Part shown: in pieces, positions 1,179 through 58,637 of the stretch
Layout: every line of letters begins with the position of its first letter
Position numbering within the stretch: the stretch's first letter is position 1
Assembly: GCA_945873955.1 (NCBI GenBank)
Contig: CAMCFA010000003.1
Coordinates: 1-64,000, forward strand
Source: an uncultured Clostridia bacterium
Lineage (GTDB): Bacteria > Bacillota > Clostridia > Oscillospirales > Ruminococcaceae
Direction of reading: 5' to 3'
DNA length: 64,000 bases
The notes under the pieces: generated by a model
The model's database searches: none
What the model saw: the letters and a program-made list of their open reading frames with translations, nothing else
Told to the model about the DNA's origin: nothing
Translations under genes and position numbers: made by a program

Positions 1179-1202
1179 TCTAACACCGCCCTGTGTTCAA
1201 GT

Positions 1203-1946
1203 TCAGTAGCTTACTTCGTTAAGGTACAGCCCCTCCGGCGGGAGGGTTATCCCGGCAAGCTCCCTGCTGCCGGTCTCCAGCGCCTGCCGGACGTCGTCCA
1301 GTGTCCGCCTGCCCTCGCTGACATAGATCAGCGTTCCGGCGCATATTCTCACCATATTATACAGAAATCCGCTGCCGCTTATGCGTATTTCGCATATCTG
1401 ACCGCGCATTTCAGCGTGAAAGTCATATATCGTTCTTACCGTGGACTTCATTCTGGCCTTGCCCTCGGCACGGCAGAAAGCCCCGAAATCATGCTCGCCG
1501 ATCAGAAGCTGCGCAGCGTTGTTCATCTTGTCCAAATCAAGCTCATAAGGGTAATGATACGCCAGCTTCTGCATGAACACGTCCCGCTGCGGGGTGTTCG
1601 CTATCAGGTAGACGTACTCCTTGCCCTTGGTGCAGTACCGCGCGTGGAAGTTCTCCGGCGCGTCCTCGCAGGAAAGCACCGCGATATCCGGCGGCAGCAG
1701 CGTGTTCATGCCCTTGATAAAGCCCTCGCAGGGTATCCTGCTGTCAACATGCACATTGAAGCAGAACCTCCTCGCATGAACCCCGGTGTCCGTCCTTGAA
1801 CAGCCGTATATCACCGGCGCGGGGATCTTCAGCAGCTTTCCTATGCAGTTTTCCACGACCTCCTGCACGGTGAGCGCGTTGCCCTGCCGCTGAAAGCCGT
1901 GATATTCCGCGCCGTTATAGGCGATAAAAACCTTTAGGTTGCGCAT
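1203..1946 (-). CDS. truA: tRNA pseudouridine synthase A
   Basis: AYNGAEYHGFQRQ and CSRTDTGVHA motifs; located after ecfT as is common in Firmicutes. Confidence 0.95.
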   Translation of the reverse strand: MRNLKVFIAYNGAEYHGFQRQGNALTVQEVVENCIGKLLKIPAPVIYGCSRTDTGVHARRFCFNVHVDSRIPCEGFIKGMNTLLPPDIAVLSCEDAPENFHARYCTKGKEYVYLIANTPQRDVFMQKLAYHYPYELDLDKMNNAAQLLIGEHDFGAFCRAEGKARMKSTVRTIYDFHAEMRGQICEIRISGSGFLYNMVRICAGTLIYVSEGRRTLDDVRQALETGSRELAGITLPPEGLYLNEVSY

Positions 1947-1965
1947 AGTTCACCTCGTCACCTCT

Positions 1966-2778
1966 TTACGGCAGCACCGGGAAGCAGTTTATCACAATTA
2001 CCGCCGCCATAAGCGCCAGCATTACTCCGACAGCAACATAGTCCCTCGGCGCGGTGTGCATTACTTTCAGCCGGGTGCGCCCCTCGCCGCCGTGATAGCA
2101 GCGGCACTCCATTGCGGTGGCAAGCTCGTTCGCCCGCTTGAATGCCGACACGAACAGAGGTATCAGCACCGGGATAAGCGCCTTCGCCTTCTTGAACAGC
2201 CCGCCGGTATCCAGCTCCGCGCCCCTCGCTTTCTGGGCGGACATTATCTTGTCCGTTTCCTCCACCAGCGTGGGAATAAACCGCAGCGCAATAGTCATCA
2301 TCATGGACAGCTCATGCACCGGAACGTGTATCTTCTTCAGCGGCGAAAGCAGCCGTTCTATCGCGTCGGTGAGCATTATCGGCGAGGTGGTGTAGGTCAG
2401 CAGCGACATTCCCACGATCAGCGTGATAACTCTTATCAGCATGAACAGCGCCGTGTGAACTCCCTCCGGGTATATCTCAATGAACTCCCACTTGAACAGC
2501 GGCGTTTCTCCCTTTACGAAAAACAGGTTCAGTATGCCGGTGAATATCATCAGCGGAAGTATCGGCTTAATGCTCTTTAATATCATTATCAGCTTGATGT
2601 CCGCCAGAATATAGCATACCACCATGAACAGCATACCGAGGATAAGCCCGGTGTAGCTCTGCGCCGTAAAAAGAATAACAAGGTAAAGTATATCCAGCAC
2701 GAGCTTTACGCGGCTGTCAAGCCTGTGTATGACCGATTTGCCGGGAAAATACTGCCCTATCGTAATGTCCTTTATCAT
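1966..2778 (-). CDS. ecfT: Energy-coupling factor transporter transmembrane protein EcfT
   Basis: Multi-TM, C-terminal EcfT-like motifs (ARGAELDTGG...; AMECRCYHGGEGRTRLK). Confidence 0.93.
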   Translation of the reverse strand: MIKDITIGQYFPGKSVIHRLDSRVKLVLDILYLVILFTAQSYTGLILGMLFMVVCYILADIKLIMILKSIKPILPLMIFTGILNLFFVKGETPLFKWEFIEIYPEGVHTALFMLIRVITLIVGMSLLTYTTSPIMLTDAIERLLSPLKKIHVPVHELSMMMTIALRFIPTLVEETDKIMSAQKARGAELDTGGLFKKAKALIPVLIPLFVSAFKRANELATAMECRCYHGGEGRTRLKVMHTAPRDYVAVGVMLALMAAVIVINCFPVLP

Positions 2779-2795
2779 TTTGTTCTACCTTTAAC

Positions 2796-4565
2796 TCAAT
2801 GCTTTATCAGCGGAAGCAGACGTTCTGCCGCCCTTTCGGTCGTGTAGATGTCGTTTCCGATATCAGTGCCCAATTCTTTAAGGATATGGCTCATACGGGT
2901 TATCTGCGGTACGTCAAGACCTATCTTCGCGAGCTGATCTGTCATGCCGAACACCCTGTCCACCGTATCATAGCAGAACAGCCGGCTCTTGTTCATGACA
3001 AGCACCTTGCCCGCGTACTTCACGATGTCCTCCATTGAGTGGGACACCAGCAGTATCGTCTTGCCGTACTGCTCGTGATACCGCTTTATCATGCCAAGTA
3101 TCTTGTCCCTGCCCTTAGGGTCAAGACCCGCCGCCGGCTCGTCAAGGATAAGCACCTCCGGGTCCATGGCAAGCACCCCGGCAAGGGCGACGCGCCGCTG
3201 CTGTCCCCCGGAAAGCTCAAACGGCGACCTGTCCAGCAGATGCGTGATACCCATGCTTTCCGCCGCCTGCTTTACGCGCTTGTCGATGTCCTCGTCGGAA
3301 AGCCCCATGTTCTTCGGACCGTAGGCAATGTCCTTTGCCACAGTTTCCTCAAAGAGCTGGTGCTCTGAGTACTGGAACACTATCCCGACCTTAAAGCGGA
3401 TATCGCGGATATTCACGTCCTTTGCCCATATATCCGCCCCGTCCACCAGCACAGTGCCGGAGGTAGGCTTCACCAGACCGTTGAAGTGCTGTATCAGCGT
3501 GGATTTGCCGCTGCCGGTGTGTCCGATAATTCCCACGAACTCGCCCTGTTCGATAGCAATGTCCACGTTGTCCACGGCGGTTTTCTCGAAGGGCGTTCCA
3601 ATGCTGTATTTATAGGTCAGTTTCTCGCCCTGCAATACTATCGGGCGCTTGTCCGCGGTGATCTCCCGCTCCGGCTCTGCCTGCGGAATGACCGTGCTCC
3701 TGCCCTCTGTCAGCCGGTGCAGAGCCTCGGCGCACTCCTGCTCGCCGATTATTTCCGTGGAAATATCCACGCCCTGCTCCCGAAGCTCCTCACAAAGCTC
3801 CGTCACCTGCGGGACGTCCAGACCAACGGATTTGAGCCGCTTCACCTGAGAAAAGATCTTCTTCGGCACGTCGTCCATTATTATCTTTCCGCCGTCCATG
3901 ACTACCACCCGGTCAGCCTGCGCAGCTTCGTCCATGTAGTGGGTAATCAGAACCACAGTTATGCCCTTTTCCCGGTTCAGCGTGTGGATCGTCTTCATGA
4001 CCTCCCGCCTACCCTTCGGGTCAAGCATTGCTGTCGGCTCGTCCATGACGATACACCGAGGCTGCATTGCGATAACTCCCGCAATGGCGACCCTCTGCTT
4101 CTGCCCGCCGGAAAGCTGGTGCGGCGCGTGCTCCCGGAACTCGTACATGTCCACCTGCTTCAAGGCGTCGTCCACCCTCTGCCGTATCTCCGGCTGGGGA
4201 ACTCCCATGTTCTCCGGCGCGAACGCCACGTCCTCCTCGACAATGGTAGCAACAAGCTGATTGTCCGGGTTCTGGAAAACCATGCCCACCGTCTGGCGTA
4301 TATCGTATATCTTTTCCTCGTCTGAGGTGTCCATTCCCGCGACAGTCACCTTGCCCTCGGTGGGGTAAAGAATCGCGTTAAGGTGCTTCGCCAGCGTGGA
4401 TTTGCCGCAGCCGTTGTGTCCCAGCACCGCAAGGAACTGGCCCTCCGGCACGGAAAGGCTGACGTTTTTCAGCACCTGATTCCGCCCGGTCTCGTTGCCG
4501 TCCTCGTCCCGACTGACATAGTCAAAGCTGACGTTCTCGACCTCGATGATGTTTGTATCTGACAA
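2796..4565 (-). CDS. ecfA: Fused EcfA1-EcfA2 energy-coupling factor ATPase (two ABC domains in one ORF)
   Basis: Two Walker A ([18 protein letters not shown]), two LSGGQ signatures and two Walker B motifs in one 589-aa frame. Confidence 0.93.
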
Positions 4566-4571
4566 ATTATC

Positions 4572-5444
4572 TTACCTCTGTTTAAAACTTACTATCGCCG
4601 TACTTCCCGCCGGAAGCGGCATTCCGGTCTGTTTTACCGGAAGCCCTATCTCCTGCGAATCCACTGAGATATCAAACCGCTGACCCACCGTCATTTGCAG
4701 CAGGTAGCTCATAACGCTTGCCGAAAGTCCAGTGGTGTAGCTGTTCAGCAGAATGAACAGCGGTCTGTCCGAAAGGAGCTGCGTGCAGGAGGTCATGAGA
4801 TCGTAAATGCAGTCCTCCAGCTTCCACATCTCGCCGTTTGTTCCCCTGCCGTAGCTCGGCGGGTCAAGTATTATGCCGTCGTAGCGCGTCCCCCGGCGTA
4901 TCTCGCGGTTGATGAACTTCTGCGCGTCGTCCACTATCCAGCGTATCGGTCTTTCCGACAGACCGGAGAGCTTCGCGTTAGTGCGCGCCCAGTCCACCAT
5001 ACCCTTTACCGCGTCCACATGGCAGACGGAGGCTCCCGCCGCCGCGCAGGCAAGGGTCGCTCCCCCGGTGTAGGCGAAAAGGTTCAGCACGTTTATCGGG
5101 CGGTCTGCCCCGCGAATCGCGTTCATGCAGTAGTCCCAGTTCACCGCCTGCTCCGGAAAAAGCCCGGTGTGCTTGAACCCGGTGGGCTTCACCATAAAGG
5201 TGAGGCCGCCGTACTTTATCTGCCACGACTCGCTGAGCTTCCTGCGGTAGTCCCACGAACCGCCGCCGGAGGAGGAACGGTTGTACTTCGCGTGCGCCGT
5301 CTGCCACTCCGGGGCGGTATTGCCGCTTTTCCAGATTATCTGCGGGTCGGGGCGGATAAGGATAACGTCCCCCCAGCGCTCAAGGCGCTCCCCGTCAGAG
5401 GTGTCGATAAGGCAGTAGTCCTGCCACTTGTCTGATACTCTCAT
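4572..5444 (-). CDS. Class I SAM-dependent rRNA methyltransferase (RlmI/RlmK-like)
   Basis: VLNLFAYTGGATLACAAAGA, VDAVKGMVDWARTNA and LDPPSYGRG motifs. Confidence 0.85.
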   Translation of the reverse strand: MRVSDKWQDYCLIDTSDGERLERWGDVILIRPDPQIIWKSGNTAPEWQTAHAKYNRSSSGGGSWDYRRKLSESWQIKYGGLTFMVKPTGFKHTGLFPEQAVNWDYCMNAIRGADRPINVLNLFAYTGGATLACAAAGASVCHVDAVKGMVDWARTNAKLSGLSERPIRWIVDDAQKFINREIRRGTRYDGIILDPPSYGRGTNGEMWKLEDCIYDLMTSCTQLLSDRPLFILLNSYTTGLSASVMSYLLQMTVGQRFDISVDSQEIGLPVKQTGMPLPAGSTAIVSFKQR

Positions 5445-5462
5445 TTCTTCTGTCCTTTAAAT

Positions 5463-5822
5463 TTAAAGTTTCTGCCACTCAATGCACTCCGGCAGCTTCA
5501 TTTCTTTCATGAATTCGGCGGCGCATTCCAGCACCTTGCTCTCCGGGACTATCTGCCCGCGCTCGATAGTATACGCCTCGCCGTCGATATTGACGTCAAC
5601 TGTGCCGTGCAGCTTCCTGTCGCCGACGGAAACGTAAGCCGTTCCGCCCTCGGCGGTAAAGTAGTTCAGCGAAGCGCCGTCCTCGCAGCAGAGTATCGCT
5701 ATGCAGGGGTAGGTGTCAGTCCCCTCACCCAGCCATATCTCTCCGCAGGCGGCGTTCAGCGCGTCCTTAAGCTGCTCTTTATCGTTCACCGGGAAGTTCC
5801 CGTTATTTGCACAAACTAACAT
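5463..5822 (-). CDS. Hypothetical protein, 119 aa
   Basis: ORF fits tightly between glmM and the methyltransferase on the same strand. Confidence 0.65.
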   Translation of the reverse strand: MLVCANNGNFPVNDKEQLKDALNAACGEIWLGEGTDTYPCIAILCCEDGASLNYFTAEGGTAYVSVGDRKLHGTVDVNIDGEAYTIERGQIVPESKVLECAAEFMKEMKLPECIEWQKL

Positions 5823-5834
5823 TATTTTCTCCTG

Positions 5835-7196
5835 TTATGTGAGATTTGCCCGTACAGTATCAGCGATAAAATTCGCAAGGCGCTCTACCATTGCCATGTC
5901 CTTGCCCTCTACCATTACACGGACTAACGGCTCGGTGCCGCTCTCCCGCACAAGGACTCTGCCGCCGCCGGAAAGCTCCTTTTCCGCCGCAGAAATGCTC
6001 TCCGCGATCGCGGGAATGCTGCTCCATTTGCCCTTTCCCTCGGCTGAGATACGCACGTTCACCAGAAGCTGCGGGTAGTCCTCGATATCCCGGCACAGCT
6101 CCGACAAGGGCTTTCCGGTCTCCTGCATTACCTTGATGAGCATTGCCGCGGTAAGCTGCCCGTCGCCGGTGGTGGCGTGGTCGAGCAGGATTATATGCCC
6201 GGACTGCTCCCCGCCTATATTATAACCGTTTTTGCGCATTTCTTCCAGAACATATCTGTCCCCGACCTTTGCGCAGACGGTTTTCATGCCGTTGTTCTTC
6301 ATGAAGTCGTGGAAGCCGAGGTTGCTCATGACCGTTACGACCGCCGCGTCGCCTTTGAGGATACGCTTCTCCTTCATGCGTTTCGCCAGCACTGCAATTA
6401 TCCTGTCGCCGTCAATAACTCTGCCGTTTTCGTCCACCGCAAGGCACCTGTCGGCGTCGCCGTCGAACGCGAAGCCCGCGTCGAACCCGCCGTTCTTCAC
6501 CTGCTCACAGAGCTGCTCAATATGGGTAGAGCCGCAGCCGTCGTTGATGTTCGTGCCGTCCGGCTCGTCGGCGAGAAACTCGCAGGAGTCGCCAAGATAC
6601 GCGAACAGCTTCGGCGCAGTCGCCGCGGAACTTCCGTTAGCGCAGTCAAAGCAGAAACGCAGGTTCGTCCCGGCGTAATTCCCCGCGCCCACGCAGTCGC
6701 GGATATGCTGTATGTAATCCTTGCAGGCGCTGCTCAGACGGGTTATCCTGCCCACGGAAGTACCCTCGCACAGCGGAATATCGCACTTCTTATCAAGGAT
6801 AAGCTCCTCTATCTCCTCCTCAACGCTGTCCGGCAGCTTGAATCCGTCCGAGGAGAACAGCTTTATGCCGTTGTACTCCACCGTGTTGTGTGACGCAGAT
6901 ATCATCACGCCGGCGTCAGCGCCGTAAGCCTTGACAAGATATGCCACCGCCGGGGTAGGAACTACACCCAGCAGAAGCGCGTTCGCTCCCACCGAGGCAA
7001 GCCCCGCGGACAGCGCCGCTTCAAGTATCTTTGACGAAATTCTCGTGTCCATGCCGACGATTATGTTCGGGTGGACTTTTCCGCTCTCCTTTGTCAGGAC
7101 GTAAGCCGCCGCCCTGCCTATCTCCATTGCTCGCTCGCAGGTAAGCTCTGTCACCGCGACTCCCCTTGCACCGTCAGTGCCGAATATTCTTCCCAT
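5835..7196 (-). CDS. glmM: Phosphoglucosamine mutase
   Basis: MGRIFGTDGARGVA; active-site ISASHNTVEYNGIK; DGDADR. Confidence 0.96.
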   Translation of the reverse strand: MGRIFGTDGARGVAVTELTCERAMEIGRAAAYVLTKESGKVHPNIIVGMDTRISSKILEAALSAGLASVGANALLLGVVPTPAVAYLVKAYGADAGVMISASHNTVEYNGIKLFSSDGFKLPDSVEEEIEELILDKKCDIPLCEGTSVGRITRLSSACKDYIQHIRDCVGAGNYAGTNLRFCFDCANGSSAATAPKLFAYLGDSCEFLADEPDGTNINDGCGSTHIEQLCEQVKNGGFDAGFAFDGDADRCLAVDENGRVIDGDRIIAVLAKRMKEKRILKGDAAVVTVMSNLGFHDFMKNNGMKTVCAKVGDRYVLEEMRKNGYNIGGEQSGHIILLDHATTGDGQLTAAMLIKVMQETGKPLSELCRDIEDYPQLLVNVRISAEGKGKWSSIPAIAESISAAEKELSGGGRVLVRESGTEPLVRVMVEGKDMAMVERLANFIADTVRANLT

Positions 7197-7223
7197 CTTG
7201 ATTCCCCCAAATTATGTATTATC

Positions 7224-8279
7224 TCAGAAGTCGTCCAGCGTCTGCTGTCCGTCCTGCAATATACCCAGATGTTTGTACGCCAGCGCGGTCGCCGTGCGCC
7301 CTCTCGGAGTTCTTGCAATAAAGCCTAACTGCATAAGGAACGGCTCGCAAACCTCCTCCAGCGTGACCGACTCCTCGCCCAGCGCGGACGCCAGAGTTTC
7401 CAGTCCCACCGGACCGCCGTTGTAGCCCTTGATTATCATTTCAAGGAAGCGTCTGTCCAGCCGGTCAAGTCCCAGCCTGTCTATGTCCTCGCGCCCAAGT
7501 GCGATATCCGCGATCTCGCGGTTTATCTTTCCGTCGCCCAGTACCTCCGCGTAGTCGCGGACGCGCTTCAGCAGGCGGTTCGCGATTCTCGGCGTCCCGC
7601 GTGAGCGCTTCGCGATCTCCATTGCGCCGTCCTTTGTGCAGGGTATCGCTAAGATCACCGCCGAACGCTGCACGATACTGCACAGCTCCTCCGGGGTGTA
7701 AAGCTCCAGCCGCTGAATCACGCCGAATCTGTCGCGAAGCGGCGCGGAAAGCTGCCCGGAGCGGGTAGTCGCGCCTATCAGCGTGAACCTTGGCAGGTCT
7801 ATTCTGATAGACCGCGCGGACGGACCGTTGCCCATGATTATATCCAGCACGAAGTCCTCCATAGCGGGGTACAAAACCTCCTCCACCTGCCGTGAGAGCC
7901 GGTGTATCTCGTCGATAAACAGCACGTCGTTCGGCTGGAGGTTGGTAAGCAGCGCCGCCAAATCCCCGGCTTTCTCAATAGCGGGACCAGAGGTCACCCG
8001 GATATTTACGCCCATTTCGTTCGCGATTATGCAGGAAAGAGTGGTCTTTCCAAGTCCCGGAGGGCCATAGAGAAGAACGTGATCAAGACATTCGCCGCGC
8101 TTTCTCGCCGCCTCGATATAGACCTGCATGTTCTCCTTGACCTTCTCCTGCCCTATGTACTCGGAAAGCAGCTTCGGGCGCAGGGAATACTCGATATCGG
8201 TATCTGCCTCATTATATTCCGGTTCGACGATTCGGTTACTTCTTTCCGGGTTTCCGCTAAATTCAGACATTTCCAGCAT
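7224..8279 (-). CDS. ruvB: Holliday junction branch migration helicase RuvB
   Basis: [37 protein letters not shown] motifs. Confidence 0.97.
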
Positions 8280-9210
8280 CTGTATCTTCCTCTTCTAATG
8301 TACAGCGTTTATAGTATTCACGGGGCAGGTCCTCTCCCGTCGCGTCCGGCGCGTGGTTAAAGGTGTGAAGCGCGGTCATGCGCCTTGAAAGCTCCTCCGG
8401 GTCTTTATACCCGCAGAGCAGTGCCTTTTCGTAGTTCTCCCTGCACTTTTCCTCGTCATCGTGCATTGCGTACCATGTTGCAAGCTCTGCGTAGACCAGC
8501 GGGTGATTTTCCTGTATCGTCACCAGCTTTTGCAGAGTTTCCAGCGCCTTGTCGTCCTCGCAGCGCACCATGTATATCTTCGCAAGGCTGAAATAGGAAT
8601 AGCCGTGGTTCGGGTCGTATTCCAGCGCCTGCTGGAAGCAGTACTCCGCGCTGGACAGCTTCCCCTCCACGTAGTATGCATGTCCCAGCCGGGACTGCAC
8701 CTCCGGGTCGTCCGGGGCGAACTCCGCCGCCTTGCGGAAGCACCACAGCAGCCGCGGGTCGTTCTCGGTAGCCTCGTACAGCTTGATGAGCCACTCTATG
8801 CAGAACATCTGGTTCTGCCGCACGCTGGACAGACTCAGTGCCCGCTGGAGCAGGTCGTCCGCGTCGGGGTATTTCCCCTGAAACAGCTTCACTATGCCCT
8901 TGTATGCGTACTTCGCCGCCTCGTCGCTGCGTATCTTGCGTATTCCCTGCTTGCCAAGGGCTTTCAATGCCGCCCGGCGCAGTTCCACCTTGTTCCTTAT
9001 AATTAAGAACATATTTACAACAAAAGCCGACAGCGCCACTGCCAGAGCCAGCCCCAGCGCCATGATACAGCAGTATCTGTCGCTCTCGTCGCCCACCGAC
9101 ATAAAGTAGGACAGGAAGAATACCGCCTCAACCACCGCGATACCTAACGCTACCTGCATTCCCTTATTGCCGGACAGATGAATTTTCTTTTTTTCAGACA
9201 ATATTATCAC
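8263..9210 (-). CDS. TPR-repeat membrane protein
   Basis: Two N-terminal TM segments then TPR-like repeats ([22 protein letters not shown]); overlaps ruvB start by 17 nt. Confidence 0.75.
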
Positions 9211-9234
9211 CTCTGTAAGGGGGATATCATTTCA

Positions 9235-9840
9235 TCAGCCAAGCCGCTTCAGCGCGTACTTTATAAGCTCCTCCACCGTGCTGTCCGGGGAGGCTCCCGC
9301 CAGCGCCGCCTGTGCCTGCGGCAGGGCGAATCCCAGAACGCACAGCGCCGTTATCGCCTCTGCGGCGGCATTTCCTGCTTCTGCAGCTACCGGCTCGCTC
9401 GCAAAGTCCGCTGCGGAAATGTGCTGCTCCTTTGCAACCTTGTCTTTAAGCTCCATAACGATACGCTGGGCGATCTTCGCGCCTATGCCCGGCGACCGGG
9501 TGAGCGTCTTGCTGTCGCCGGTGGTTATGCACAGCGCCAGCTTTGAGGGCGTCAAGTCCGACAGAATGGACAGCGCCGCCTTAGGGCCAACACCGGACAC
9601 CGATGTGAGCTGCCGGAACGCCGCCAGCTCCGCAGTGTCCGCGAAGCCGAACAGGTCTACCGCGTCCTCCCGGACGTTAAGCTGGGTGAACAGCCGTACC
9701 TCCTTAGGCTCGCCGTTTGCGCCGCCGATCTTTTTCAGCGTATTCATGCTTGTTCGGCAGGCGTAGCCAACTCCGCCGCATTCCACCACCGCAAGGTTGG
9801 GTTCGGTATGTATCAATTCGCCGTGTAAGCTGTAAATCAT
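9235..9840 (-). CDS. ruvA: Holliday junction DNA helicase RuvA
   Basis: MIYSLHGELIHTEPN; two HhH motifs (SVSGVGPKAALSIL, RSPGIGAKIAQRIV). Confidence 0.96.
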   Translation of the reverse strand: MIYSLHGELIHTEPNLAVVECGGVGYACRTSMNTLKKIGGANGEPKEVRLFTQLNVREDAVDLFGFADTAELAAFRQLTSVSGVGPKAALSILSDLTPSKLALCITTGDSKTLTRSPGIGAKIAQRIVMELKDKVAKEQHISAADFASEPVAAEAGNAAAEAITALCVLGFALPQAQAALAGASPDSTVEELIKYALKRLG

Positions 9841-9858
9841 CTGTATTACCTCATGATA

Positions 9859-10401
9859 TTATTTTTTGTGCAGTATCTTCCCCATGCCGCCGTTTTTTTC
9901 CTCCGCCCTCGCGATAAGCCGTGAGAGCTGTGAGCCGCTGGAATGTCCGTGGCATATCGCCAGAGCCACCGCGTCGGCGGTGTCGTCCGGCTTGGGAATC
10001 TCTTTCAGATTCAGAATATTCTTGACCATTTCCTGCACCTGGTGTTTTTCTGCCCTGCCGTAGCCCACCACCGCCTGCTTCACTTGAAGCGGCGTGTACT
10101 CGTAGATCTCTATCCCCCGCTGGACAGCCGCCAGCAGGATAACTCCCCGCGCCTGCGCCACGTCTATGCCGGTGGTCTTGTTGTTGGTGAAATACAGCTT
10201 TTCTATCGACATACAGTCCGGCTTGAACATATCCAGCACAGTGCACATGTCGTTGTATATCTCCATAAGCCGCTGGTCGAAGCTCGTCCCGGCTTGGGTA
10301 GTCACTGCGCCGTAATTCACCACCGTGAACCGCGCTTTGTCGTAGTCCAGCACGCCGTAGCCCACGATAGCATAGCCGGGGTCAATGCCGATTATCCTCA
10401 T
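9859..10401 (-). CDS. ruvC: Crossover junction endodeoxyribonuclease RuvC
   Basis: MRIIGIDPGYAIVGYGV; IEKLYF; DDTADAVALAICH. Confidence 0.96.
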   Translation of the reverse strand: MRIIGIDPGYAIVGYGVLDYDKARFTVVNYGAVTTQAGTSFDQRLMEIYNDMCTVLDMFKPDCMSIEKLYFTNNKTTGIDVAQARGVILLAAVQRGIEIYEYTPLQVKQAVVGYGRAEKHQVQEMVKNILNLKEIPKPDDTADAVALAICHGHSSGSQLSRLIARAEEKNGGMGKILHKK

Positions 10402-11015
10402 GTGTAGCTTTCGTTGTCGGTGATATAAGCGCGCACCCGAAGCGGTATCCCCATATCGTCCGCCAGCTTCTGACAGCGCTGTATCTCCTCCGGGGTGATG
10501 ATGTCCACCACCGTGAATCCGGTCTTTACGCCCATGTTCTTCATTTCCGCCGCGAAGTCAAGCATGGTCTGGAACGCTTTCTCGCCCCATTTCGGGCGTG
10601 TGACCTCGTTGTAGCGCTTAGCGTCCGGGGCGTTAAGGCTTATGGAGGTGCTGTCGATAAGCCCCTTGAAGCGGCTGAGGTCGAAGTCCGGGTGTATCAG
10701 CTTCACCAGCCCGTTTGAGTTCAGCCGTATCTTCATGCCGGAGTTCTGCTTGATATATTCCGCCGTGCGCACCAGCATGTCTGCCCGGACGGTAGGTTCA
10801 CCGTAGCCGCAGAACACCGCGTCGGTGATACCGGTCTTGTCGAAACTGTCAAACGCCGCCGTTATTTCCTCAAAGGACGGCTCATGCTCCAGCCACAGGC
10901 TGTCGTTGTCCTTTATGGAGTCCGCGTTGTTGCGCAGGCAGAACACGCAGTCGCAGGGACAGCCGTTGGTTATATTGATATACATTTTGCCTTCAAATCT
11001 GTAAAAAATAGTCAT
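10398..11015 (-). CDS. TatD-linked-type radical SAM protein
   Basis: CPCDCVFC (CxxxCxxC), GYGEPTVR; start chosen by the SD GGGAGTGA upstream of ATG at 11015; overlaps ruvC start by 4 nt. Confidence 0.82.
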   Translation of the reverse strand: MTIFYRFEGKMYINITNGCPCDCVFCLRNNADSIKDNDSLWLEHEPSFEEITAAFDSFDKTGITDAVFCGYGEPTVRADMLVRTAEYIKQNSGMKIRLNSNGLVKLIHPDFDLSRFKGLIDSTSISLNAPDAKRYNEVTRPKWGEKAFQTMLDFAAEMKNMGVKTGFTVVDIITPEEIQRCQKLADDMGIPLRVRAYITDNESYT

Positions 11016-11281
11016 AAAAATCACTCCCGTGTATACAAATATTCATTTTATTATACCACTATATTGCGCTTTTGTCAAATCGTATTTCACAAAATATTGC
11101 GTGAATTAACGGACATTTTTCGGCATTTTTGAGTATGATTCCTGCCGCCGCAGGCGGGCAGTTTCTTCCTTGTATACAAGAGGAGCAAAAAGAGATAATA
11201 TGAACATGTTTCAACACCCGGCGCGCCGAAAATTTTAAACATTTCAACAACAAAAATAATTCTCTTTTTTTCAAATTCCGC

Positions 11282-11310
11282 TTGACAGCCTTAGTAATAT
11301 GTGTTACAAT
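11282..11310 (+). promoter_or_regulatory. SigA-type promoter TTGACA-17-TACAAT
   Basis: TTGACA 11282-11287, 17-nt spacer, TACAAT 11305-11310. Confidence 0.75.
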
Positions 11311-11383
11311 TAACAATGATAATTCTGTCGAAAGGCAGGGACAAAGCACCGCCCCCGACAGCATACATAAGGAGGACAAAATA

Positions 11384-11653
11384 ATGGACGACATTCATGT
11401 TGGAGATAAGGTAGTAGTAAAGCTCAAGGAATATTTCAGCGGCGAAGGCAACGCGAAGCCCCGGGTACAGGGCGAGGTAAAGTTTGTGAACACAAAGGCA
11501 AATTTCGCGGTGGTTGACGTTGGAAAATACAACGTTACCTACTGGAACAACGAGATCATGCCCTTTGACCCCGAAAAGTTCAGACTCACCACAAACAACC
11601 GCGTTGAGCTTATCAGCCCGGCTTCCTCCGAGGAAGAATCAGACGAACAGTGA
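11384..11653 (+). CDS. Small hypothetical protein (about 89 aa)
   Basis: ATG at 11384 preceded by AAGGAGG; promoter upstream and strong terminator downstream; the ORF-track start at 11282 lies inside the promoter. Confidence 0.75.
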   Translation: MDDIHVGDKVVVKLKEYFSGEGNAKPRVQGEVKFVNTKANFAVVDVGKYNVTYWNNEIMPFDPEKFRLTTNNRVELISPASSEEESDEQ

Positions 11654-11700
11654 TCCGCGGAAAATCCGGCATTGCGCTGAATTCACTTAAATACAAAAAT

Positions 11701-11737
11701 CCTGCGGGAGAGTTGATCTCCCGCAGGTTCTTTTTAT
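11701..11737. terminator. Intrinsic (bidirectional) terminator
   Basis: CCTGCGGGAGA gttga TCTCCCGCAGG perfect 11-bp stem then ttcttttta. Confidence 0.9.
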
Positions 11738-11744
11738 GTGAGGT

Positions 11745-12044
11745 TTACGCCCCGAAAAGCTCCTTGCTGAGCCATACATAAGCGGTGTCCAGCGCCTCAT
11801 AAAGGCTGTTCATCTCGCCCTTTTTCATCTTGGCGAAATCACTGGGGTCTGTTCCGGTGGGGACCATCTGAACCATTACCTTTGTGGGGATCTCGCTGTC
11901 CTTGAAGGTCTCGCTGTCCCGGATCGTGAGCTTTGTCACGAACCTGTCGCCCATGCTTCCATAGTAGATCTCGTTCCCGCTTCTTACCATGGGGAATCCG
12001 CGGTAATAGAAAAAGTTACTCTCAGCCATTGTAATTACCTCCAT
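11745..12044 (-). CDS. Hypothetical protein, 99 aa
   Basis: ORF between terminator and the DUF4340 gene; SD-like ggaggtaattac upstream. Confidence 0.65.
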   Translation of the reverse strand: MEVITMAESNFFYYRGFPMVRSGNEIYYGSMGDRFVTKLTIRDSETFKDSEIPTKVMVQMVPTGTDPSDFAKMKKGEMNSLYEALDTAYVWLSKELFGA

Positions 12045-12059
12045 ATATTAAAATAAAAT

Positions 12060-13676
12060 TTACCAGTTAAGCTCGATCTCCCCGCCGTTAAGCAGTGCGT
12101 CGAGATTGGAGAGAAGCCGCTCGGTATACACCTGACGAACCTTGTACAGCACGTCGCCGTTTACTCTCACGATATTCTTCCTGTCGTCGGACTTGTAGAA
12201 CTCAATGATATCCTCGCTTCTGCCGTAGGTGCTCTCGTACTCACTGCGGTAGGTGAAATGCACCTTGATATACGGCTCGTAGTCCGCCTCCTCAAAGAAC
12301 AGCTCCTCGCCCATTGATGTGATAAGGTGCTGGTAGAAGCCCTTGAACTTGCTGTCGTCAAGCGTCTGATCGCCGCAGTAGAACGCATGGTTGTCAGCGT
12401 CGCCCTCTACCCGGAATACATACTCGCCGTCCGGGGTAGTGACCGTCAGAGTGTCCACCGTGTAGATGTAGGGTGAGATCGGTCTGCGGGACATGATGTC
12501 CTGTACCTTGAACGTGTACCACGGAGCGTTGCTGGTGCTGATCGCGTAGATCAGATTTCCGCCCTCGAACATAGCGTAATATCCGGTGACGGTGGACAGC
12601 CCGCCGCTCTCCTCGCTGTCGTCAGCGGAGCGTATCTCGTTGCCAAGCAGAAGAACTCTCGCCTTATTGCCGTACTTGAAGCTGATACGGCAGTAGGGGT
12701 CGTCAAGACCCACCGCCGCGATATCCTCCTCTGTCGGGTCGATATATTCGCAGGAAGCCGCGCTCAGCGCATACAGACCGTAGCATATAGTCTGTCCGCT
12801 GGTGGTGTCCAGCTCGGCGGTTATCGGCGAGGTGATACGGTGTGAGTTGAACGTGGTGATGACCGAATCCTCGTCCTCCGCCTGTTCAGCAATGTCATAC
12901 ATATACTCGATCTCAACCGGCTCGGACAGATCCTTGCGCTCAATAATAAGGTAGTCCAGCTCCTGCGGGTTGTTGGCGTTGTAGCTCTCCGTCATAACAA
13001 GGCTCACAAAATCCTTGATGTCGTAGAACACACTGCCGGTGCTGTAATAGCTCACCTGCATAACGTCGCGGCTGCCCTTTTTGCAGAAATAAACGTAGTT
13101 TGAAGCCGCCGGGTTGCGGATACCGAAGCACATGTCGTTCACCGTTCCGTCGTCAAAGGTGATCTTCACCGAAGCCACGGGGTTTTCCAGACCGTATTTG
13201 TCCAGATCCGCAGCATTTTCCTCCACGATATCCTTTGCGGAAAGCCCCGCAAGGCTGCGCACCATTGCGCCTATCGTGGAGTCGTTGTGGGTCACGCCGG
13301 AAAGCTCCGGGCTTACCCAGTAGTACTCAGTCGAGGTGCTGACATTTCCCTCGTCGTCGGTGGAGGACACCTGCCGTGAGTTTCGGTCGAAGGAGAAGCT
13401 GCCGGTTTCGTTGGATATCTCCAGCTTCAGCACGTTCTCCTGTTCCTTATTGTTTATCACCAGCCTATCGTCCTGAGAAGCTTCCTCAGTGCCGATAAGG
13501 TCGTTTATCGCGTCCTCCGCCGCAGACGACGAAGTCGAAGCGCCGGAATCCCCGGAGGAGGCGCTTTCCTCCTCCGCAGGGTTTGTCAGCAGCAGCACCA
13601 GAAGCACCGCTCCCAGTACCAGCAGCACACCCGCCGCAATAATGACCGTTCTGGTTGTTTTTGATAGCTTTGCCAT
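12060..13676 (-). CDS. DUF4340-like protein
   Basis: N-terminal TM, long extracytoplasmic domain; clustered with GldG-like and ABC genes. Confidence 0.8.
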   Translation of the reverse strand: MAKLSKTTRTVIIAAGVLLVLGAVLLVLLLTNPAEEESASSGDSGASTSSSAAEDAINDLIGTEEASQDDRLVINNKEQENVLKLEISNETGSFSFDRNSRQVSSTDDEGNVSTSTEYYWVSPELSGVTHNDSTIGAMVRSLAGLSAKDIVEENAADLDKYGLENPVASVKITFDDGTVNDMCFGIRNPAASNYVYFCKKGSRDVMQVSYYSTGSVFYDIKDFVSLVMTESYNANNPQELDYLIIERKDLSEPVEIEYMYDIAEQAEDEDSVITTFNSHRITSPITAELDTTSGQTICYGLYALSAASCEYIDPTEEDIAAVGLDDPYCRISFKYGNKARVLLLGNEIRSADDSEESGGLSTVTGYYAMFEGGNLIYAISTSNAPWYTFKVQDIMSRRPISPYIYTVDTLTVTTPDGEYVFRVEGDADNHAFYCGDQTLDDSKFKGFYQHLITSMGEELFFEEADYEPYIKVHFTYRSEYESTYGRSEDIIEFYKSDDRKNIVRVNGDVLYKVRQVYTERLLSNLDALLNGGEIELNW

Positions 13677-53375: not shown

Positions 53376-53408
53376 GCTCCCCTCTCATGCAGAAAGGGGA
53401 GCTTTATT
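53376..53408. terminator. Terminator between aguA and the GHKL gene
   Basis: GCTCCCCT ctcatgcagaa AGGGGAGC TTTATT. Confidence 0.8.
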
Positions 53409-53421
53409 GTATTTGTGTGAA

Positions 53422-56400
53422 TTACTTCTTCTGGTTGTCCTCGTACCACTTCGCCGCCATCATGGGTGAAAGCACGAAATCGAGGATCTCCGGAGCGCCG
53501 TCGTAGACCTCGCTGCCGGAACCTATCTCGTCCTCGCCGACAGCCTCGCATACGTCGTAGGTCACCTGCGGACGGTACTTGATACGGCAGTACAGGAACT
53601 CCGGCGGAATGTAGTCTATCTGGGAGACCTCCTCCAGCCAGAGGAACGGCGACATACCGCCTATGCTCACGTCGTCGATTATCCAGCCGCCTGCCGCGTA
53701 GGAATCGTTCGCGCAGAGGTACAGCGAGAAGTGGAACTTCTGTTCCTTTTCGCCGTTAAGCAGACCTATCGAGAAGTCCTTCAGGATAAAGCTGTTTATC
53801 ATCTTGGACTCGTAGCCGCAGCAGGGGCATACGCCGCCGTAGCCGTACAGCTTGGCGTTGATGTCGCGGGCGAAATAGTTCTTGTACATTCTGGGGTTCT
53901 TTATGCCGGAAATGCGGCGAACCTCGCCCAGCAGGAAGTCGAACTCCTTGCGCTGGATAGTGGGCACAGGCTTGTAATAATACGGTATCTGGTCGGCAAT
54001 AACAAGGTTCGGCTCCTCGGTGCTGGAATACAGCGCGGACAGCGCGTTTCCGATATGCCCGGTGAGAATGAACTCAATGAACCGCGCGAACTGCGGCTTG
54101 GTCAAGCCCTCGTGCAGTACGACATACTTCGCGGTCTTTGCCTTGTTCTCCGGGGAGATACCCTCCGCCGGGTCGATTATCTTGATTATCTTGTCGTTTT
54201 CGTCCAGCAGGGCGATCTTATCCAGTCCGAGATCGCAGGTGTATATCTTCGCGATCTGCTCGGAAACAAACTGTGCATTGCCGAGGGACGGCAGTACGGT
54301 AAGAAGCTCCTCCGGGTCGTAGTCGTAGCGTCCCGGCGCATAGGGGAAGTCGAACACACGTCCGTTGAACATGCCGCTCTCGATAAGCAGGTAAACGTCC
54401 CCGACGATCTCCAGCAGGTCTGTGTTGGTGATGTTCGGCGGGATCATGAACTGCTTGCCGTAAGCGGAGAAACGGTAGCGCTTGTTGATGTCCAGCGCCA
54501 GAGTTACGTCGCCGCCCTGACTCTTGATCTCCCGCAGGAACTCCATTGTGTCCTTGCCGTTGGTGAAAGAGTTGATCAGCAGCGTGATCACCTGGTTGTA
54601 GATCTGGTGGTTCTCGAACCGCATTTCGTGCTTCTGGATAACGTCCATTGCGGTCTTGAGGTTGCCTATCTGGATCTTGGATATCTCAAAATGAATGTCA
54701 GTTCCGCCGGAGGTGATATGGAACTGGAAGTACTTCATGTCAATGCGGTAGCTCTCGCCGAACATCTCGTCGATGATCCGGAAAGCCTCCGCCAGCGCGT
54801 TTTCATCAGCAACGGCGCCGTTCACGATGCAGGTGTTCAGCTTTAAGCTGATTATGCTCATGAAGCCCTCGGACAGACCGTAGTCCTTGATCCTCTTGTC
54901 CTTGTCGGAGGTCATGAGGTAGCTGTGTCCGCCCTGCTGGAACGCGTAAGCGTACTCCACACCCTTTTCGTTGGTTTCCTGCCGGTACCAGTCGTACTTT
55001 GCGGCGAACACATGGTCGTCGTCGGAGCCGTACCACTCCTTCATCTGCTCCAGATCGGAAAGGAGTGCCTCACCCGCCGCACCGCTGTCGTGATCCTCGA
55101 TATCGGTGTCAGAGCGCTCGGTGAAGTAGCCGTGCTCCCGCAGGTCGGTGAAAGCTATCGGTTGCTCAATATCCGGGAACTTAACGGAAATGCTCTCCAG
55201 GAACTTCTCCCGCAGACCCTTTACCAGCGTGCTGGTGCTTATGTAATTATAGAAGAACTCGAACACATACTGCGCCGGGCGGAGCATGTACCTGTCGGGC
55301 GCGTCCGGGCGCTTGGTGAGCTGAAGCACGAACAGCCGCTTGTACTCGTCCACGATGTCAAGGATATCCTCCTCGATCTCGGTGGAAACCTCCTCAATGC
55401 AGTCGTGGCGGATACCGGAACGGTTGTTGGTAACGTACCTGTTCGGAACGCTTACGAAGAACGCCGAAAGCTGCTCCTGTAAGAAATCCTGCCGGCTCGC
55501 CTTTACAAGTCCGGTCAGCTCGAAGGTGGAGAAGTAGTTGTACTTGCTCATCAGCACCCTCGCGGCTTCGCGCTTAGCGCCGGAGATCGCGTACGGGATC
55601 AGATATACAAAGCCGTTCTCCTCCATGTGAATGAAATCGGCGACGGACTTGCCGTTCTCGCTGAAACGGATCTTTGTGATGTCGTTCTCGTCCCGGCGGT
55701 ATTCCTGAATCTTGTATACTACCTCAGGCTTGCCGAAGGAGATGACCGCGATATTGAAGGTGCGGGAGGGAGTTTCGTGCTCGTCGGAGTTTTTGAGGTG
55801 CTTCTTTCTGATGAACGCGAAGCACAGATCCACCATGTTGATGTAGTCGCCCTTTTCGGACGTCATGGTGACAAGGTTGTGGTGGAGCTTCTTCTGATCC
55901 TCCTCGTCAAGCGCGAACACTATCTCGGTGTGCTTGAACTTCGGCGCGGTGAGCTCCAGCTCCCGGACTTTCAGTATGCCGCCGTCGTTCACAACGCGCA
56001 GAGCATAATTGTTCGACCTCATCTTGAACCAGTCAACGTTCGCGAACACGCTCTTCGCGCCAAGACCGAACCGACCCTCGCGCTCCTTGCCGCCGTCGCT
56101 TCTGCCGACGGAAAGATAATAGAACACCTGTTCAAGGCTGAATCCCGTTTCGTTGTAGGTCAGCTTTACCTGCCCCTCGTCAAGGAACTCGATCATTACC
56201 TTGATGTCGTTTTCCTCGTAATCGCAGCCGAAAACGTTCTGCAAAAGCTCGCGGATAATGGACTCACGCGGATAGTCGTTCACCATTCCGGCGACATTTA
56301 TCGCGCTTCTTCCGGTGTACATGCTGTTGAAATAGTCCTTGAACGGCGTGCTGTCGGTTTCCCCGGAGTAGAGCATCATCTGGATCTTCTGAATGACCTC

Positions 56401-56484
56401 AGCCATGCCCTCCTTGTCGCCGGCGGTGTGACGTTCAAAGAAGTCACCAAGGAGCTTTTCAACCTGTTCGTTGTTTTCGCTCAT
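53422..56484 (-). CDS. Large GHKL (HSP90/MutL/MORC-type) ATPase with C-terminal zinc/HNH-like cysteine motif
   Basis: N-box RELLQN; NETGF; G2 motif GRFGLGAKSVF; C-terminal YGYGGVCPCCGYES...LYLCAND; start at MSENNEQ. Confidence 0.85.
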   Translation of the reverse strand: MSENNEQVEKLLGDFFERHTAGDKEGMAEVIQKIQMMLYSGETDSTPFKDYFNSMYTGRSAINVAGMVNDYPRESIIRELLQNVFGCDYEENDIKVMIEFLDEGQVKLTYNETGFSLEQVFYYLSVGRSDGGKEREGRFGLGAKSVFANVDWFKMRSNNYALRVVNDGGILKVRELELTAPKFKHTEIVFALDEEDQKKLHHNLVTMTSEKGDYINMVDLCFAFIRKKHLKNSDEHETPSRTFNIAVISFGKPEVVYKIQEYRRDENDITKIRFSENGKSVADFIHMEENGFVYLIPYAISGAKREAARVLMSKYNYFSTFELTGLVKASRQDFLQEQLSAFFVSVPNRYVTNNRSGIRHDCIEEVSTEIEEDILDIVDEYKRLFVLQLTKRPDAPDRYMLRPAQYVFEFFYNYISTSTLVKGLREKFLESISVKFPDIEQPIAFTDLREHGYFTERSDTDIEDHDSGAAGEALLSDLEQMKEWYGSDDDHVFAAKYDWYRQETNEKGVEYAYAFQQGGHSYLMTSDKDKRIKDYGLSEGFMSIISLKLNTCIVNGAVADENALAEAFRIIDEMFGESYRIDMKYFQFHITSGGTDIHFEISKIQIGNLKTAMDVIQKHEMRFENHQIYNQVITLLINSFTNGKDTMEFLREIKSQGGDVTLALDINKRYRFSAYGKQFMIPPNITNTDLLEIVGDVYLLIESGMFNGRVFDFPYAPGRYDYDPEELLTVLPSLGNAQFVSEQIAKIYTCDLGLDKIALLDENDKIIKIIDPAEGISPENKAKTAKYVVLHEGLTKPQFARFIEFILTGHIGNALSALYSSTEEPNLVIADQIPYYYKPVPTIQRKEFDFLLGEVRRISGIKNPRMYKNYFARDINAKLYGYGGVCPCCGYESKMINSFILKDFSIGLLNGEKEQKFHFSLYLCANDSYAAGGWIIDDVSIGGMSPFLWLEEVSQIDYIPPEFLYCRIKYRPQVTYDVCEAVGEDEIGSGSEVYDGAPEILDFVLSPMMAAKWYEDNQKK

Positions 56485-56567
56485 AAATACGCCCCATTTC
56501 TCCGCACTTCCAATTGTGACTGCACCATGCCCCGTGCGGAGGGACACGGCTCATGCAGAAAAGTTCG

Positions 56568-58523
56568 TCAAATGCCGTCGTTGTATATTCTGATGAAATC
56601 CTTGGACGAACGGACGCTGTCCTGCTCCCGGACTCTGTACCGCCATACGCCGTACAGCACCGGGTACTGGATACAGTCGTTGAGGGACTGGATATCGTTC
56701 TTAATCATGAGGTGATAATTGCTGCCGCTGTGAAGCTCGTCGATATGCTTGTGCGCCGCTTCAACTCCCGCGATCGCCTCCTCGCCGAAGGGCTGACCCG
56801 CCGGGTCTTGGTCAAGGCTGGCGGCTATCTTGGAAAGCATTTCGCTGTTCACCGGAGCAAGCGCGCCGTCGTTCACCGCGCAAAGCCCTGTCAGAGAAGC
56901 AAGCGCCGCGGCGATGTCCTCCTGCGAAGCGTCCTTTGAAACGCCGAAGAACCCGCAGACCTTCGCCAGCAGCTTTCCTGCGAACTCCGCAAGCTGCTTC
57001 GCGTTATTGATCTTCCCCGCGCCAAGCGCCTCGTAATCGCCCTTGAACTTTCTGATGAGGTCGTAGCAGTTGTCTACCTCGCTGGCGTAGCTCTCTGTGT
57101 AGCGCAGGTCGGCGATAAGGTTGCTCAGACACTCCGCCTTGATGTCGATATCAAGCAGGATATTTCTCGCCGGGGTATCGCCGAAGAATGCGTCCGCAAG
57201 CCCGCCGAACAGCACCTTATCCAGCATTCTGCTGTCGAACAGCTTGTTGCTGTCGCGGAATATTATGAAGCTGCGCTGGTTCTCGTTCTTTGCGCCGTGG
57301 CGGGTCATTCTCCGCTCAAGCAGCACCGGAGAAACCGGCAGCTCGTAGTTTATCACATGCGTTACCCGGTCAAGACCGTCGCCTACCGCGCCGATATCGT
57401 CGGTGGCGATAATGAGCTTCGGGTATGTAGTGCGGTCGTCAACGTTCAGCTTTCTGAGGATATCGCGGTTGCTGAACAGCTCGCCCCTCGCCGCCTTGAC
57501 AACGCCGCTGCCGGGATACATGGCGGTGAGCGTCTTTCTCAGATACTCCACCGTGTTCTTGTCACAGCAGTAAACGATCGCGCGGCTGTTCTCCTGCGAC
57601 ATCACCTCGTCGGTGAGCTTTAAGAATTCGTCCAGCTTTTTGTCGGCGGAGCGTAATTCAGCCACGTCGGAGGGCGTATAGGCAGCCTTCTGGTACACCC
57701 ACTTCGTCTCGTCAACGTCGTATTCCTCGAAGATGTTTCCGCCGTACTTGTAGTTCGGCAGACCGGTTCTGATGTCTATCCTGCGGCGAAGTCCGCTGAG
57801 GAAGCCCTCGTCGCAGCCGTAGTTCACAAAGGAAACGCTGCGCTTGATCTCGCCGTTGTAGATACGCTTGTCACCGGCGCTCAGCACGGGTGTGCCGTAG
57901 TCCAGCGGCAATCCGGAAACGCTGAGATCCAGATCGTCCGCGGCGGAAGCCTGTTCCTCGTCGGAGAGGAGCTGCTTTACCATGCCGGACAGCGCCGCCT
58001 TGTCCTCGTCGCTATTTGCCGGGAACTGGGTTATCATAAGCAGACGCTCGGTCTTCCACGGAAGCTGCTCTTTCCAGAAGCCGTAATCCGGGACGCCGGT
58101 ATTCTGCTCGTCGTCAATGATCACCAGATCCCACACGAAATCCTGCGGGACCTTTGCTTTCAGCCCGTTAGCGCTGTTCAGCGCGTCAGAGGGCATAAGA
58201 TACAAGTTAGAACTATCCTGCGAGAAGAAAACGATCTCATTCGCCGCACCGGAAACCACCTTGAAATCAGCGCCGATACCGGTCATGAGGATCCTGTACC
58301 AGCCGTACAGGACACGTCTTGAAGTAATCAGCAGAATGTTGGGGCTTTCCTTTTCGGCAAGAACGTCGTATATGCAAAGTCCTGCCTTGGTCAGCTTTTC
58401 GGAGCCGAACTCACAGCAGACCAGCGAAAACCCGAATTTGCGGAGCTTTTCCGCAGGGGCAAGATTTGCCGCTGATAAATCCATTCCGCCGAGGGGGATC
58501 CATTTTACACTGTTGCCGCTCAC
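56568..58523 (-). CDS. Degenerate SNF2/RapA-like SF2 helicase-fold protein
   Basis: CCEFGSEKLTKAGL (degraded Walker A), VIIDDEQ (motif II-like), ATDDIGAVGDGLDRVTHVINYELPVSPVLLERRMTRHG (motif V/VI-like); GTG start with GGAGGTG SD 6 nt upstream. Confidence 0.8.
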   Translation of the reverse strand: MSGNSVKWIPLGGMDLSAANLAPAEKLRKFGFSLVCCEFGSEKLTKAGLCIYDVLAEKESPNILLITSRRVLYGWYRILMTGIGADFKVVSGAANEIVFFSQDSSNLYLMPSDALNSANGLKAKVPQDFVWDLVIIDDEQNTGVPDYGFWKEQLPWKTERLLMITQFPANSDEDKAALSGMVKQLLSDEEQASAADDLDLSVSGLPLDYGTPVLSAGDKRIYNGEIKRSVSFVNYGCDEGFLSGLRRRIDIRTGLPNYKYGGNIFEEYDVDETKWVYQKAAYTPSDVAELRSADKKLDEFLKLTDEVMSQENSRAIVYCCDKNTVEYLRKTLTAMYPGSGVVKAARGELFSNRDILRKLNVDDRTTYPKLIIATDDIGAVGDGLDRVTHVINYELPVSPVLLERRMTRHGAKNENQRSFIIFRDSNKLFDSRMLDKVLFGGLADAFFGDTPARNILLDIDIKAECLSNLIADLRYTESYASEVDNCYDLIRKFKGDYEALGAGKINNAKQLAEFAGKLLAKVCGFFGVSKDASQEDIAAALASLTGLCAVNDGALAPVNSEMLSKIAASLDQDPAGQPFGEEAIAGVEAAHKHIDELHSGSNYHLMIKNDIQSLNDCIQYPVLYGVWRYRVREQDSVRSSKDFIRIYNDGI

Positions 58524-58608: not shown

Positions 58609-58637
58609 ATTATACTACAAAATCGCAAATATTACAA
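58609..58637 (-). promoter_or_regulatory. SigA-type promoter TTGTAA-17-TATAAT for the helicase/GHKL operon
   Basis: Minus strand TTGTAA (58632-58637), 17-nt spacer, TATAAT (58609-58614). Confidence 0.65.

Follow-up and report, generated by a model that had tools for sequence, protein, structure and literature searches.

A motor-degenerate SNF2-like protein and a GHKL ATPase form a core gene pair in related Clostridia

Introduction

Is a pair of genes that resembles a defence module necessarily a defence system? This question is raised by a locus in a stretch of 64,000 nucleotides (nt) from an uncultured Clostridia bacterium of the family Ruminococcaceae (assembly GCA_945873955.1, contig CAMCFA010000003.1, positions 1 to 64,000), referred to below as the window. 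A preliminary description of this DNA had pointed to two large adjacent genes on the same strand at 53422-58523, encoding a helicase-like protein of 651 amino acids (aa) and a GHKL ATPase of about 1020 aa, and had proposed them as an undescribed defence or DNA-remodelling system, with a conserved chromosomal role as the alternative. Both open reading frames (ORFs) were found there, and all of the motifs quoted for them (FGSEKLTKAGL, DDEQ, TQFP and RRMTRHG in the first protein, ELLQN and GRFGLGAKSVF in the second) are present. The background invoked at that time, namely that MORC-type GHKL ATPases are associated with superfamily 2 (SF2) helicases in restriction-modification contexts, is correct (PMC2292703). 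Our literature search found no description of this gene family.

Results and Discussion

The helicase-like protein keeps an SNF2 fold with degenerate motor motifs

The upstream gene had been read as having a RapA/SNF2 layout, and structure prediction agrees with this reading. The AlphaFold model of the 651-aa protein, for which 27 homologues were used, has a pLDDT (per-residue confidence score) of 84.7 and a pTM (predicted template modelling score) of 0.87, and its best Foldseek match is E. coli RapA (8spg, E=1.6e-11), followed by many SNF2 remodellers. A RecA1-RecA2 fold of the SNF2/RapA type is thus predicted with high confidence. Sequence profiles give the same direction at lower scores: Pfam Helicase_C reaches 23.0 bits (cut-off 23.5; no Pfam cut-off was met), the NCBIfam models of DrmD and DpdE reach 21.3 and 18.9 bits (cut-offs 610 and 500), and PADLOC matches to DrmD (E=2e-10) and HmaA (E=5e-10) lie mainly over the helicase C-domain, i.e., the second RecA domain. 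The family was also compared with three distant relatives in which the helicase is intact (described below), and the two profiles match with E=4.9e-16 over 413 columns.

Aligned against these intact relatives, motifs I, II, III and V of the window protein are degenerate; TQFP falls on their TATP in motif III, and DDIGAVGDGL on their GKTGGTGLNL in motif V. The altered form of motif I is common to the whole genus. In one detail the earlier reading needs amending: the DDEQ form of motif II is limited to the window's own subclade, DEEx being the usual form in the genus. Of the 72 family members compared, 68 have the Walker A lysine but only nine the fuller GK-T pattern, and 30 have DE in motif II; motif V is lost in every one, and none has motifs I and II intact together (0/72). 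Eight of the nine GK-T proteins, all with the sequence GEGKT, come from a single 'Ruminiclostridium'-type clade (L132, L138, L145, L146, L148, L150, L152, L153), in which motif I has been kept or regained without motif II; the ninth is L170. Since no member has both motifs I and II and motif V is gone in all, the family is best called a pseudo-helicase family.

Some family members may nevertheless have residual ATP binding. One could imagine, in this respect, that the SNF2-like protein is a regulator which binds ATP without hydrolysing it and gates the GHKL protein by its nucleotide state. The retained lysine, the GK-T pattern of the nine proteins and the first arginine of motif VI, which is kept in 72/72, speak for such a function; however, the residues beside the lysine are replaced in most members (GSEKY, GSEKL) and motifs II, III and V differ freely from clade to clade, so that we regard this explanation as very unlikely.

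A sequencing error or a decaying pseudogene was also considered and is ruled out by the genus-wide degeneracy of motif I and by the ratios of nonsynonymous to synonymous substitutions (dN/dS) against the nearest relative, 0.121 for the pseudo-helicase and 0.065 for the GHKL gene. For nearby metabolic genes the same comparison gives 0.056 (aguA), 0.029 (aguB) and 0.039 (ilvB). Both genes of the pair are under purifying selection. Had close homologues kept an intact Walker A, such an error would have been suspected, but no close orthologue is a fully intact helicase.

The GHKL protein retains its ATPase motifs

The second protein keeps its ATPase motifs and is apparently a working ATPase. Residues E79, N83, Y110, N111, E112, G140, G142, K144 and S145 are invariant in 71/71 GHKL family members, and the G1 (YNE.GF) and G2 (GRFG.G.KS) boxes show the same conservation in these 71, with one exception at F115. 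E79 is presumed to be the catalytic glutamate. The division of labour suggested previously, an active GHKL protein beside an inactive helicase-like one, fits these counts; the helicase-like protein may be the non-catalytic clamp or sensor that was proposed with it. A second conserved element lies near the C-terminus, where C886 and C889 occur in 71/71 proteins and C924 in 70; the intact relatives have CPIC...CxxC near their C-terminus, and in the multiple alignment a C-terminal Cys motif is present in both groups. Most genus members carry a further C-terminal tail of 50-140 aa past residue 1020 (e.g., L018, 1510-4989), which the window's subclade does not have.

The NCBIfam sacsin ATPase domain NF047352 matches residues 96-175 of the GHKL protein (1041-aa numbering, see below) with E=1.7e-5; its score of 25.2 bits falls short of the curated cut-off, which is 50, and the GHKL profile had no match among solved structures. 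With the weak structure model (pTM 0.40 overall), Foldseek returns Hsp90, MutL and GyrB at similar E-values; most of the top matches are of the Hsp90 family, and the alignments cover about 500 columns for Hsp90 and about 250 for the N-domains of MutL, at TM-scores of only ~0.1-0.2 on the query. These data bear on the possibility that the pair remodels proteins in the manner of a chaperone, in which case the GHKL protein would work like Hsp90 or sacsin rather than as a DNA clamp, and its protein client (e.g., RNA polymerase) would be bound by the SNF2-like subunit as adaptor. Both the nearest domain model and the Hsp90 majority would suit it, as would the top fold match of the partner, RapA being an SNF2 protein associated with RNA polymerase. 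Yet MutL and GyrB match at similar E-values, the TM-scores are low, and the closest precedents for such a pairing act on DNA (PMC2292703). We consider this explanation improbable.

The two genes are an obligate pair of the core genome

The proposed two-gene module was borne out in other genomes, where the two genes do co-occur. The genus is represented by 43 genomes, counting that of the window; 41 have the GHKL gene, 40 the helicase-like gene, and 40 both. The two genomes devoid of both are 69% and 83% complete, and in the one genome with GHKL alone (77% complete) the gene lies at a contig end; all genus genomes at least 84% complete carry both. A scan of GTDB representatives yielded 110 GHKL relatives, from which 79 loci were kept. 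In 74 of these, the gene immediately upstream in the same orientation is the helicase-like one; the remaining five are explained by contig ends or by an artefact of ORF picking (L127, by comparison with L037). Outside the window's genus, most intergenic distances lie between -4 and +14 nt. Moreover, the distances of the two proteins are tightly correlated (Mantel r=0.977 over 72 pairs). We conclude that the two genes are an obligate, inseparable pair.

By record titles, nearly all of the 79 loci come from gut Clostridia, under the names Oscillospiraceae, Ruminococcaceae, 'Ruminiclostridium' or metagenome-assembled genomes of uncultured Clostridia; single records titled Bacteroides, Roseburia and Eubacterium group inside these clades and may be mislabelled. 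A GHKL profile search in 399 genomes spread over the phylum found the window's own gene only (0/398 others). The GHKL identity tracks that of IF2 across 31 genomes (Spearman 0.81, p=4e-8). IF2 served as the species marker because GlmM, which was dropped, seems to be displaced in most of the genus. The distribution of the pair is clade-core and vertical.

A phage origin of the genes was likewise rejected. Scans of IMG/VR with both profile types gave no matches of the pair in viral contigs, and the sole 'phage' match, a 22331-bp record labelled 'Bacteriophage sp.' in GenBank (MT835670.1, L174), is an unannotated segment of a bacterial chromosome, collinear with L091 and with the same neighbours.

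Intact distant relatives

Three distant relatives, L033, L092 and L175, have an intact helicase, and in each a GHKL neighbour is found in the same gene order. In a quick tree rooted on them, the 72 pseudo-helicases form one group apart from the three. L033 (6063-11863), found in one genome of the same genus, and L092 (945-6764), in another genus of the family, are intact SNF2-GHKL pairs and rare accessory genes; one of these two shares its genome (G015) with a degenerate core pair.

The third, L175 (locus 1192-13081), is located on the Lysinibacillus capsici plasmid pFN9B (NZ_CP106864.1, 29116-52148), where genes for a PD-(D/E)XK nuclease and a UvrD helicase and then the intact SNF2-GHKL pair follow each other on one strand. 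An integrase gene and a restriction-modification gene of the Eco57I type are close by. The four consecutive genes may be an undescribed defence module. No further convincing intact SNF2-GHKL pairs were found in 295, 399 and 370 sampled genomes, which gave only matches of the degenerate family or weak partial ones.

The neighbourhood shows no defence-island signature

Within the window's genus, rnfCDGEAB often follows the pair, and an HD-domain-like gene lies upstream of it; a ter/tellurite cluster, first suspected downstream from the gene sizes, turned out to be these rnf genes. In other genera the pair often precedes mraZ-mraW-ftsL-ftsI-murE or follows pgk-tpi-gpmI. Pfam analysis of 123 flanking ORFs identified MraZ, MraW (the rRNA methylase of the dcw cluster), polysaccharide deacetylase, bactofilin and assorted metabolic genes, and PADLOC at E<=1e-10 reported mad3 only, in three ORFs. 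No nuclease or DNA methyltransferase was detected in the neighbourhood of the degenerate pairs, by analysis of the flanking genes including the 123 ORFs scanned. Since the flanking ORFs are core and metabolic genes and PADLOC yields so little, the neighbourhood has no defence-island signature. The possibility raised earlier that these might be universally syntenic core genes of known function did not hold as stated: the pair is core, but its position varies among relatives.

Could the pair nevertheless be a constitutive anti-phage or anti-plasmid system that became fixed in the clade, with the pseudo-helicase as a sensor of foreign DNA and the GHKL protein as an ATP-driven effector? SNF2-GHKL pairs belong to restriction-modification systems (PMC2292703), the best helicase profile matches are DrmD, HmaA and DpdE, the GHKL protein weakly matches TmtA (a PADLOC name that could not be traced in the literature), and one intact relative is situated near restriction-modification and integrase genes on a plasmid. 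On the other hand, the pair encodes no nuclease or methylase alongside, is universal and vertical in its clade among core genes, gave no match in viral contigs apart from the mislabelled chromosome segment, and has a helicase motor that is dead by its motifs. An immune role is in our opinion rather unlikely. The label of a defence system was thus left unsupported, and the conserved chromosomal role offered beside it fits better.

Proposed capture and repurposing of an SNF2-GHKL module

The partnership of the two proteins is kept, but without nuclease or DNA methylase, with core vertical inheritance and with a disabled helicase. Capture and repurposing is the most economical reading. A restriction/defence-type SNF2-GHKL module would have been captured, and its SNF2 subunit would have lost the helicase motor, the fold being kept as a binding platform. 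The two proteins would form a complex. In it the GHKL protein would be a clamp driven by ATP, on which it would dimerise like MutL, MORC and Hsp90, and the pseudo-helicase would be the adaptor that binds DNA or RNA polymerase. The task of such a complex would be steady maintenance of the chromosome (DNA looping, compaction or clearing) and not an attack on phages. We give this reading, a clade-core operon derived from a defence-type module, a probability of about 0.5.

Several points weigh against it. The single capture depends on a quick tree with long branches, and the defence origin on few cases, as only one of the three intact relatives is in an evident defence context. Between the GHKL proteins and their intact-type counterparts, significant homology is confined to the N-terminal ATPase domain (119 columns, E=3.2e-6), and with the poor overall model an S5/transducer domain is at most putative. 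We infer, moreover, the complex formation, DNA as the substrate, the role, and the origin from a defence module.

A bolder and more doubtful version of capture and repurposing can be put forward tentatively: the pair might be a bacterial housekeeping counterpart of eukaryotic MORC, i.e., a restriction-type SNF2-GHKL module domesticated once in gut Clostridia, whose helicase became a dedicated non-catalytic adaptor and whose clamp took on a core role as an ATPase that organises the chromosome or silences genes.

Although neither gene reaches a cut-off of Pfam or NCBIfam, nearly every genome of the genus has the pair, and ~110 database genomes of related Clostridia contain it; the GHKL gene is under selection similar to that on metabolic genes. 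As a likely defence module that was turned to a core function, the pair can be traced and compared with relatives that are still intact, and it allows one to ask in bacteria how an SNF2 protein that lacks a motor serves a GHKL clamp.

Organization of the locus in the window

The features of the locus are collected in Table 1. The pair is located between genes which we take, by our own reading, to be aguA on one side and an aldolase/rhamnulokinase pair on the other. The helicase-like gene, upstream in the pair, starts with GTG preceded by a good Shine-Dalgarno match. For the GHKL ORF, an in-frame GTG at 56547 would yield 1041 aa; the ATG used here is the start common to relatives. A promoter-like site before the first gene and a terminator-like hairpin after the second, both consensus matches only, make the two-gene unit look self-contained. 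Promoter-like sites in the region number 5 versus 3.0 expected by chance, which is suggestive only, and terminator-like hairpins are no commoner than chance, so that the argument there is the position of the hairpin after the GHKL stop.

Table 1. Features of the SNF2-like/GHKL locus (window coordinates).
Feature	Position	Strand	Basis
Catalytically degenerate SNF2/RapA-like helicase protein, 651 aa	56568..58523	-	ORF; AlphaFold; Foldseek; profile match
Degenerate motif I, residues 39-49, FGSEKLTKAGL (intact relatives VGTGKTVAGIY)	58377..58409	-	alignments
Degenerate motif II, residues 137-140, DDEQ (intact relatives DECH/DEGH/DEAH)	58104..58115	-	alignments
Altered motif VI, residues 404-410, RRMTRHG (intact relatives QRFGRxxR)	57294..57314	-	alignments
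GHKL (Hsp90/MutL/gyrase/sacsin-type) ATPase protein, 1020 aa	53422..56484	-	ORF from conserved ATG; NCBIfam; Foldseek
ATPase motifs, residues 74-150: N box RELLQN, G1 YNETGF, G2 GRFGLGAKSVF	56035..56265	-	family alignment
C-terminal Cys module, residues 886-927, CPCC...C.ND, possible zinc site	53704..53829	-	family alignment
Promoter-like site TTGTAA-17-TATAAT	58609..58637	-	consensus scan, 10/12 matches; 86 nt upstream of helicase-like start
Terminator-like hairpin, 11-bp stem and T-rich tail	53376..53402	-	~20 nt past GHKL stop

Elsewhere in the window, at 5835-7196 on the minus strand, lies the glmM gene. The GlmM of most genus genomes is ~44% identical to that of the window, while many other families of the order show 50-57%, and one genome (G030) carries both types; this suggests that an essential gene has been displaced within the genus.

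Comparison with known systems

The helicase matches to DISARM (DrmD), Hma (HmaA) and Dpd (DpdE) are below the curated level of these families, and the other genes of these systems are not alongside; PADLOC at E<=1e-10 found none of their partner genes in the 123 flanking ORFs. For the GHKL ATPase, the sacsin/Hsp90 N-terminal domain is the closest curated model, albeit below its cut-off. RapA, the best structural match of the 651-aa protein, is a bacterial SNF2 ATPase that works on RNA polymerase and is active, and it is not known to need a GHKL partner. Unlike the active SNF2/RapA ATPases, no member of the window family joins a Walker A GxGK[TS] with a DExx motif II.

A precedent for an SNF2 protein without a motor is SUUR of Drosophila, which is SNF2-like and predicted to be defective in ATP binding and hydrolysis (PMC6185109). 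There, too, the fold is kept and functional, although the likeness is an analogy only: in contrast to the window protein, SUUR is eukaryotic and acts at replication forks with Rif1 (PMC6185109).

The intact pairs L033, L092 and L175 share with the degenerate pair the gene order, a homologous helicase, a homologous GHKL ATPase domain and the C-terminal Cys motif; they differ from it in that they keep the helicase motifs and are rare accessory genes, one of them in a defence-like cluster on a plasmid. Finally, MORC and paraMORC GHKL-S5 proteins occur with SF2 helicases, including SNF2, in restriction-modification operons and probably loop DNA (Iyer et al. 2008, PMC2292703). Unlike those systems, which are sporadic and mobile, the window family is core, vertically inherited and, in our sampling, confined to related Clostridia, and it combines a degenerate helicase with the lack of a nuclease or methylase. 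What it has in common with the prokaryotic MORC/paraMORC systems is the two-gene logic itself, a motif-intact GHKL ATPase with an adjacent gene for an SNF2-family helicase (PMC2292703).

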